Below are positions 27,734 through 29,440 of a stretch of DNA of 64,000 nt, one piece after another. Where the stretch lies: positions 1 to 64,000 of the IMG/VR virus record IMGVR_UViG_3300036795_000124. One strand, 5' to 3'. Both the position numbers and the translations under genes were made by a program. Positions within the stretch are counted from its first letter, which is position 1. Each line of letters starts with the position of its first letter. This DNA is from a virus. The notes beneath the pieces were generated by a model. The model searched no databases and was not told the origin of the DNA. It saw only the letters and a program-made list of their open reading frames with translations.

Positions 27734-29440
27734 GTGGCAAGCTTCTATCAGACCATCACCGATGCGGTCGCCGACATCGCCGAGTACGGTTATGAATCCG
27801 AAGAAAGATTGACCTATTGGCTTGAGCAAATCCGCGCCGCCGCCCAGGCCGATCTGACGCCCGAGGCGGAGCTCACCGCACAATTGCAACGGGTGCTTGG
27901 TAAATCTTACGCCTCGCTGGTCGAGAAGGGCGGCATCCTGCGCCGGCATGAGGGCGTGGAGCGTTGGAAGGTCGATCGACTGGCGCCTGAGCTGCGCGCC
28001 GAACTCGATCGGCGCATCATGGCGTCCGCCGACCTGATCAAGTTGAACCGCGAGCAGGCGATCGCCGATATGTTGCGGCGGTTCCAGGGATGGGCGACCT
28101 CGATCCCGGCCGGCGGCAGCGAGGCGGTCGACAAGCGCGAGATCAAGGGGCATATCCGCAAGGAGCTCGCCGGCCTGCCATTCCGTGAGCGGCGCGTGTT
28201 GATCGACCAGGGCCACAAGCTGAACGCTTCGCTCGCTGACATCATTGCCACGAATTCGGATGCGATCGCCGCCATCTGGCATTCGAACTGGCGGCAGGTG
28301 AATTACAATTATCGTCGGGATCACAAGGAACGCGACGGCCTGTTCTATGCGATCCGGGGCAATTGGGCGATCGAGCGCGGCTTCATGAAGCCAGGCCCTA
28401 ATGGCTACACCGATCAGATCACCATGGTGGGCGAAGAGGTTTTCTGTAGATGCCTCGCCCCCTCAACCCGGATTTTCCATGCGCGCGATATCGAGATCAT
28501 CAGCCGGAGAGACTATCACGGACCAGTCTACGAGATCATATCCGCCGCGATGCCTGAATTGCCTCTTGTGCTTACACCGAACCATCCAGTTCTGACCAGC
28601 CGTGGCTGGGGTGCGGCACAAGAACTCAATGTCGGTGACGATTTGATCGAGTTTTGCCAGGAGAACATCGCGTCTGGTATGGGGATAGATCACAAAAATG
28701 ACCGCGCGCCCATGATCTCGGATATATTCGAGTCGGCTGCGAAAACGTGGGGCGTCCGGTCGATAGGAGATAGTCGTTTGCAATTCCACGGCGATGGAAG
28801 TGCCAATGGCAACGTCGAGATTATACGGACCGCACGGGGATTGAGCCTCGGCATCGATTCCTTTGGCGATCATGGCGCTGATCAATTCTCGCTCGCCGAA
28901 CCCGATATGAGAGGTCTTCGATCGCGCCCTGTTTATTCGGTGCTGGAGAGATTGCTGGCGGCCACGCATACTCCCTCTCGGGATTTGGCTTATTCGTTGC
29001 TGGCGTTCTTCTTCGGTCAAATTGTGCCAATGCGCTTTCTGACCGCGACTAATTTTGGCGCCTATAATAGCGCGTTCGGTCTCGCTCCGACCGGCTTGTT
29101 TGAGAACCGCGGCATCGGCGTGCGATCTGATATCTATTCCGGCCTCTCGCAGGCGGCGACGGATTGTCGCATCGGAGACATCGAATTGCTGTGCCAGGGT
29201 CATCGAATCCCGACCGCCAAGATACGCGCTGCGAAGATACTCAGCATCAAGCGGCAGGCGTTTTCGGGACATGTTTACAACCTCCAGACCAAGGACGAAT
29301 GGTATACCGCCCATCGTATAATATCGCATAATTGCTATTACACCTACAGATACAACCTGACCGACCTCCCCGAGGACATGATCACCGCCAAGGGTCGGGC
29401 CGCGATCGCGGAGACGCGCGATATGATGATGGCGTTCTGA
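27734..29440 (+). CDS. Mu F-like head protein interrupted by an intein
   Basis: 568 residues, GTG start. Extein: residues 1-239 (helical, with NWRQVNYNYRRDH) and 534-568 (CYYTYRYNLTDLPEDMITAKGRAAI), together a 274-residue minor head protein of the Mu gpF type. The intein is codons 240-533 (28451-29332): Cys240 starts CLAPSTRIF, the B block has T..H in LTPNHPVL, the F block GHVYNLQT, and the end is HN before Cys534. Splicing would rejoin the conserved CRC motif. The central part contains no sense-strand LAGLIDADG or HNH domain. Confidence 0.85.
   Translation: MASFYQTITDAVADIAEYGYESEERLTYWLEQIRAAAQADLTPEAELTAQLQRVLGKSYASLVEKGGILRRHEGVERWKVDRLAPELRAELDRRIMASADLIKLNREQAIADMLRRFQGWATSIPAGGSEAVDKREIKGHIRKELAGLPFRERRVLIDQGHKLNASLADIIATNSDAIAAIWHSNWRQVNYNYRRDHKERDGLFYAIRGNWAIERGFMKPGPNGYTDQITMVGEEVFCRCLAPSTRIFHARDIEIISRRDYHGPVYEIISAAMPELPLVLTPNHPVLTSRGWGAAQELNVGDDLIEFCQENIASGMGIDHKNDRAPMISDIFESAAKTWGVRSIGDSRLQFHGDGSANGNVEIIRTARGLSLGIDSFGDHGADQFSLAEPDMRGLRSRPVYSVLERLLAATHTPSRDLAYSLLAFFFGQIVPMRFLTATNFGAYNSAFGLAPTGLFENRGIGVRSDIYSGLSQAATDCRIGDIELLCQGHRIPTAKIRAAKILSIKRQAFSGHVYNLQTKDEWYTAHRIISHNCYYTYRYNLTDLPEDMITAKGRAAIAETRDMMMAF
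28451..29332 (+). mobile_element. Intein (294 residues) in the minor head protein gene
   Basis: Hint-type splicing blocks: block A Cys1 with LAPSTRIF; block B Thr42 and His45; block F with GHVYNLQTKDEW; block G His-Asn293-294 followed by Cys+1. The insertion point is inside the conserved CRC(Y/W) motif of the head protein, a typical choice in an essential gene. The segment is less G+C-rich than its flanks. The linker region has FHGDGSANGNVEII, whose complement encodes part of a nuclease on the other strand. Confidence 0.85.
28463..29272 (-). CDS. Antisense Vsr-like homing endonuclease inside the intein
   Basis: 269 residues on the strand opposite to the intein, nearly as long as it. The ATG at 29272 has GGAGG eight bases upstream (29281-29285). 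Residues 10-50 are a helix-turn-helix (LAQQFDVSDATIRRRLREAGI). Residues 123-200 look like a Vsr/PD-(D/E)xK-type core: GFGEREL, then YNLDVAIGTSIAVELQ (Asp153, Glu163, Gln165), then RLEYIRDHG and VIFVIY. Free-standing Vsr-like homing nucleases linked to inteins are known. The last 30 residues may be readthrough over the start of the intein. Coding is inferred from the start signal and motifs. Confidence 0.65.
   Translation of the reverse strand: MSRKRLPLDAEYLRSAYLGGRDSMTLAQQFDVSDATIRRRLREAGIDIRSHADAAVLKQAGRSETERAIIGAKISRGQKAHWHNLTEEERQQRISQIPRGSMRGRQQSLQHRINRARSKTSHIGFGERELISAMIAKGIDAEAQSPCGPYNLDVAIGTSIAVELQTTISYRPDAPRFRSRLEYIRDHGRAVIFVIYPHTRRDVLLAKLDQIVTDIEFLCRTPATAGQNWMVRCKHKRQFRHRGGYDLVDWSVIVSPADDLDIARMENPG

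Follow-up and report, generated by a model that had tools for sequence, protein, structure and literature searches.

A phage intein family with a predicted homing endonuclease gene antisense through the splicing domain

Introduction

Intein endonucleases are known in the form of domains that belong to the intein. In PhoVMA and PI-PfuI, two inteins with a homing endonuclease domain, the splicing domain and the nuclease form one insertion at a conserved protein motif and belong to the same polypeptide. Two other described systems bring a homing endonuclease into an antisense or overlapping position. A group I intron of Didymium squamulosum, L2066, carries an antisense homing endonuclease gene inserted in its peripheral helix P9.2 (PMC9548176), and the ShiLan domain is an out-of-frame HNH endonuclease hidden in phage methylases (PMC11855218). 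The EDxHD family, which includes I-Bth0305I, has been reviewed as a family of group I intron endonucleases (PMC3943268).

Here, we describe a virus head gene with an intein whose opposite strand carries a gene for a predicted Vsr-like homing endonuclease. As in PhoVMA and PI-PfuI, splicing domain and nuclease occupy one insertion at a conserved protein motif, but the nuclease is a separate opposite-strand gene that overlaps the splicing blocks and has its own start and ribosome-binding site. The Didymium intron likewise has a homing endonuclease antisense to a self-splicing element; however, that element is a ribozyme with an insertion in P9.2, whereas here both strands are protein-coding and most codons are shared. 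In ShiLan, too, an in-frame insertion of a phage gene has a homing endonuclease hidden in a frame that overlaps it, but this endonuclease lies on the same strand, in the third frame, belongs to the HNH family, and comes without a splicing domain or a detectable ribosome-binding site. I-Bth0305I resembles our protein in its predicted catalytic fold and in the joining of DNA-binding modules to a nuclease domain, although our protein lacks the active-site His and has no detectable sequence similarity to it. A freestanding member of the same nuclease family lies beside a head gene in Acinetobacter phage BUCT629, but there the head gene is uninterrupted and has no intein. None of these systems has a separate nuclease gene antisense through a splicing domain. 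The original prediction, made from the sequence of this locus, had called a full antisense overlap unfamiliar; we found no description of an antisense endonuclease within an intein in the open-licence literature, although a report that we have not seen is possible.

Results

The window is the whole stretch of DNA that was analysed, 64,000 nucleotides of IMG/VR virus record IMGVR_UViG_3300036795_000124. Its MuF-like head morphogenesis gene (27734..29440, plus strand; GTG start; phrog_324 head morphogenesis, E 5e-19) is interrupted in frame by an intein of 294 aa and 882 bases (28451..29332, plus strand), which separates an N-extein ending in GEEVFCR (27734..28450) from a C-extein that begins CYYTYRYNL and runs to the stop (29333..29440). 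Every intein hallmark is present: Cys1, block B with its T..H (TPNHPVLT, 28574..28597; conserved in the alignment of relatives), block F (GHVYNLQT, 29267..29290), block G (WYTAHRIISHN, 29300..29332) with the terminal His-Asn directly before Cys+1, and a host gene that continues in frame. By these features the segment is a complete intein, as originally predicted, and one for which splicing can be predicted; the predicted spliced head product, EEVFCRCYYTYRY, matches EEVY-CRCYYTYLY of the relative L019. The window intein is inserted before the second Cys of the CRC motif and those of most relatives before the first (28439-28451 compared with L019, a 6-base shift).

Pfam Intein_splicing matches the sense protein at E 3.5e-5, which is under the family's curated cut-off. 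In an AlphaFold2 model with a Hint fold, the splicing halves (residues 1-70 and 257-294) reach a pLDDT of 90-98, and most of residues 130-253 fall below 50. Nearly all Foldseek matches listed for this model are inteins, PhoVMA and PI-PfuI among them, with none at E<=0.001. Between these parts, at intein aa 85-130 (28703-28840), the model places a sense helix and strand at moderate confidence, facing a helix and strand of the nuclease; they may be a true extension of the intein or an echo of antisense constraint.

The predicted antisense gene (28463..29272, minus strand) has 269 codons plus a stop and spans 810 of the 882 intein bases. The two frames are in register, with every sense codon facing exactly one antisense codon, its reverse complement. 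Its ATG (29270..29272) is the exact complement of the His274 codon, CAT, of block F, and a Shine-Dalgarno GGAGG (29281..29285), with 8 bases between it and the ATG, is also contained in the complement of that block. The gene, its start signals inside the splicing motif and the sense linker FHGDGSANGNVEII (28784..28825, plus strand), an exact complement of the nuclease motif YNLD...AVE, had all been claimed from the first reading, and all were recovered.

These start signals recur in relatives. At the 46 loci whose antisense start lies at block F, the His codon is CAT (antisense ATG) in 43 and CAC (GTG) in the remainder, compared with 18.4 CAT expected from the codon usage of the same genes (P about 1e-15), a Shine-Dalgarno core of at least 4 bases occurs at 30 of the 46 compared with 10.1 expected by synonymous shuffling (P about 2e-11), and -10-like hexamers lie upstream of the antisense start in 26 of 45 relatives compared with 13 expected (P about 1e-7), all three P values being optimistic because the loci are related and were treated as independent. 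A strict promoter scan found no sigma-70-like promoter on the minus strand of the window. The antisense gene is unannotated in every intein-bearing phage record examined.

The antisense protein combines a helix-turn-helix (HTH) region at residues 10-60 (29093..29245, minus strand; HTH_DeoR, E 7e-4; helices in the model; HTH families in relatives) with a predicted Vsr-like nuclease domain at residues 127-220 (28613..28894, minus strand) built of a helix, three strands, a helix, a strand and helices. Among relatives, Y150, N151, Asp153 (28814..28816) and Glu163 (28784..28786) are invariant, and Glu127 (28892..28894) is kept in at least 90%. An AlphaFold2 model from 31 sequences has a mean pLDDT of 80; values in the HTH helices and the nuclease core are mostly 85-98, and the C-terminal tail is disordered. 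The best PDB enzyme matches of the model are the I-Bth0305I homing-endonuclease catalytic domain (3r3p; TM 0.69 over the target) and Vsr-like NGO0050 (3hrl; TM 0.72 over the target), at Foldseek E values of only 0.02-0.05 and probabilities of 0.99-1.00 (1.00 for 3r3p).

Sequence searches with the window protein matched only HTH families, and a PDB sequence search returned only ankyrin-like and other chance matches. Its relatives match the nuclease families REase_MTES_1575 (19/31) and DUF559 (8/31) as well as HTH families. The Vsr-type active-site His (WH motif) is absent from the window protein, and GGxWH is found only in some relatives, for example L074, L077 and L089; the Rhodococcus REQ3 copy is without the N-terminal HTH part. 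Predicted fold, conserved residues and family matches support an HTH and Vsr-like nuclease with predicted activity. The HTH and Vsr-like core first proposed thus stand in respect of Asp153, Glu163 and the I-Bth0305I-like predicted fold, and the nuclease similarity that was to be looked for is present in relatives and in the fold; a Vsr-type His is lacking, and the window's own sequence matches only the HTH part.

A tblastn search with the antisense protein reached 90 phage records at E down to 1e-15, from phages of Mycobacterium, Gordonia, Pseudomonas, Klebsiella, Salmonella, Haemophilus, Vibrio and other hosts; overall, relatives are present in about 90-120 records of phages and in more than 200 contigs of IMG/VR. 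Among the tblastn matches listed, all are antisense, and the genes that contain them bear annotations such as head, minor capsid, structural or hypothetical protein. These are genes of head type or ORFs without annotation, except in Rctr197k, where the gene is a dCMP deaminase. A motif scan of IMG/VR gave 204 relatives; the overlap is real, but what had been taken for a single case is a family. A scan of IMG/VR with both window proteins found no close relatives of them, and a tighter alignment scan of genome contigs found one prophage, in Atlantibacter subterranea (L111).

Both frames stay open across this family. At the 97 nuclease-seeded loci read in detail, none had a sense stop across the match, and antisense stops occurred in only two hits, each being the gene's own terminator; the remaining four frames nearly always had several stops. 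Apparent internal antisense stops at L061 and L062 were rejected, the tblastn match having been over-extended past the true stop. Even in a Helicobacter prophage, where the GC content of the region is 0.33, both frames are open. In a search of IMG/VR seeded with the sense intein profile, the best 80 of at least 523 relatives were kept, and all 80 score on the antisense profile. Intact sense frames opposite frequent antisense stops, which the original prediction had named as evidence against itself, were not seen in this set, as 77 of the 80 have no stop inside the antisense domain and 3 have one only near its C-terminal end.

Taken alone, the window is unremarkable: the other frame is stop-free in 15-18% of synonymous shuffles that keep one protein, and the antisense frame in 15% of those that preserve the sense protein. 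It is the conservation across relatives that goes beyond chance. For 55 non-redundant loci, redrawing synonymous codons with the sense protein kept gave 271 expected antisense stops and none was seen, a zero that is partly ascertained because the loci were found by their antisense frame; with the antisense protein kept, 207 sense stops were expected and none was seen, a zero free of that ascertainment. In leave-one-out profiles, the window antisense protein scored 186.6 bits compared with 59.6 +/- 10.7 for sense-preserving shuffles, and the intein 203.4 bits compared with 133.5 +/- 13.4 for antisense-preserving shuffles. Seven other loci behaved in the same way, and each strand therefore holds information that the other does not supply.

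Selection was read from parsimony changes counted at sense codon positions 1/2/3. In ten Guernseyvirinae genomes, the N-extein shows 166/101/529 and the C-extein 39/21/206; in the intein middle the counts become 149/27/37, and in the final intein block they are back to 1/0/14. Nine further groups, pooled, gave 492/378/1069 in the N-extein, 809/234/415 in the intein middle and 21/13/72 from block F to block G. In all ten groups, substitutions thus shift from sense position 3 in the exteins to sense position 1 inside the intein. Sense position 1 corresponds to antisense position 3, so that constraint in the intein middle falls on the antisense protein; it is under purifying selection, visible between close relatives, which is the codon-level signal that had been proposed as a check. 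Each of the proposed checks open to this analysis favoured the original interpretation. By the mean confidence over 10 residues, exactly one of the two strands has confident structure at 199 of the 269 shared codons and both have it at 60, and the two folds thus largely tile the segment.

Intein-free alleles were seen among relatives (the searches gave none close to the window itself): the site is empty in the host gene of Gordonia Stultus (INCRC) and of Salmonella vB_SenTO17 (PNCRS). Gordonia Fosterous and Sedona are 95% identical in their exteins compared with 50% in their inteins. At least three host genes are occupied, namely MuF, uracil-DNA glycosylase (UDG; L043) and dCMP deaminase (L007), with second and third insertion sites in MuF genes (L002/L057 and L048), and the sense ORF of IMG/VR contig L058 has two antisense-nuclease inteins at different sites of one MuF gene. 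Empty alleles, the gap between extein and intein identity, the several hosts and the two copies in one gene indicate that the element is probably mobile.

Two natural controls are available. The ordinary intein in the polymerase part of L043 has 8 antisense stops. In BUCT629, the freestanding nuclease relative (L192:1324-2217; 155.9 bits) is convergent with the adjoining intact, intein-free head gene and has 12 stops in its opposite frame, so nuclease coding alone does not open the other strand. This freestanding form hints at a possible ancestral state and at how the overlap could have begun. At L043 itself, the C-extein is a UDG fused to a polymerase A type protein, and the ordinary intein is the second one of that gene.

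At the head-gene site that the Vsr-like element uses in Gordonia phages, phage Lennon has a different intein, with an in-register antisense ORF of 196 aa that has a LAGLIDADG-like motif (L108:915-1502, minus strand; phages Lennon, Sitar, Nordenberg, Thing3, Barsten and SchottB). The ORF matches annotated endonucleases of Cyanophage PP (E 2e-6) and Caulobacter phage CcrRogue (E 8e-6), and Pfam LAGLIDADG_3 weakly (E 0.26). Lennon and Barsten differ at sense positions 1/2/3 by 42/3/8 changes in the middle and by 4/3/25 in the N-extein, the codon-position flip seen in the Vsr-like family. IMG/VR yielded no close relatives of this protein, and because the case is one small clade it is suggestive, not established, of a LAGLIDADG-like nuclease, unrelated to the Vsr-like one, antisense in another intein. 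We consider it probable that inteins with an in-register antisense nuclease form a general class, that this arrangement arose at least twice from nucleases unrelated to each other, one Vsr-like and one LAGLIDADG-like, and that the Vsr-like form has its start codon and Shine-Dalgarno within the block F complement.

Discussion

The locus is very probably a mobile intein whose homing endonuclease is encoded by the opposite strand, in a frame that keeps codon register with the intein over most of its length and takes in parts of the splicing domain. Both frames are open and both are under selection, alongside the nuclease fold and conserved residues, the start and ribosome-binding site, the intein anatomy and the allele pattern; from these we infer the antisense transcription and translation, the cleavage and its target site, the homing and the splicing. 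Sense translation would give the head protein with a self-excising intein, whose central linker would for the most part reflect passive reading through the nuclease gene. From a start inside the block F complement, antisense translation would give a separate HTH and Vsr-like nuclease, which would cut an intein-free head-gene allele near the CRC codons. Repair from the intein-bearing genome would copy in the entire 882-bp segment, so that splicing domain and nuclease would move as one unit without fusion.

The antisense ORF could instead be a by-product, given that GC-rich genes often have an open antisense frame in register, with minus-strand similarity merely mirroring intein conservation. 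The further long antisense ORFs in the window and the share of sense-preserving shuffles that leave its antisense frame stop-free fit this reading, but under such shuffles the antisense profile score falls by about two thirds, changes cluster at the third positions of antisense codons, and an AT-rich member is open on both strands. The CAT and Shine-Dalgarno biases at block F, the freestanding homologue without an overlapping intein and the antisense stops of the ordinary L043 intein also stand against it. Unless it has a non-coding cause, the codon-position flip already refutes the by-product account, to which we give almost no weight.

Homing endonucleases in inteins commonly decay, and the antisense gene might be a former homing endonuclease that is now a decaying relic in most genomes, with only the intein maintained; the REQ3 copy with its missing HTH part would suit this. 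Decay is nevertheless improbable in view of the kept active-site residues, the purifying selection between close relatives, the lack of internal stops in the nuclease-seeded loci and the restriction of stops to the C-terminal end in the sense-seeded ones. It is about equally improbable that the protein is a genuine DNA-binding nuclease or regulator that serves some purpose besides homing, such as control of head gene expression. Its HTH domains and its position antisense to a structural gene would suit such a role, and cutting is a prediction; however, it co-occurs with inteins in the unrelated UDG and dCMP deaminase genes, its alleles are cleanly present or absent, and its fold is like that of a homing-endonuclease catalytic domain.

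An intein with an antisense homing endonuclease would represent a new kind of linkage between a self-splicing element and the enzyme that mobilises it. The family is a deeply diverged, conserved natural case of two unrelated folds on opposite strands of one segment, with selection measurable on each, and provides a natural system in which overlapping sense and antisense coding can be studied. A nuclease may be present on the opposite strand of some 'mini-inteins' that seemingly lack one, and the absence of the antisense gene from the records exposes a systematic annotation gap.

The dCMP deaminase with an antisense-nuclease intein in Virus Rctr197k (L007:616-1968, minus strand) is annotated as a 'putative head morphogenesis protein', a name that seems to derive from the intein. 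In Salmonella phages ZCSE7 and NBSal007, the intein-bearing head genes are annotated as 'NAD+--asparagine ADP-ribosyltransferase', which is probably a misannotation.
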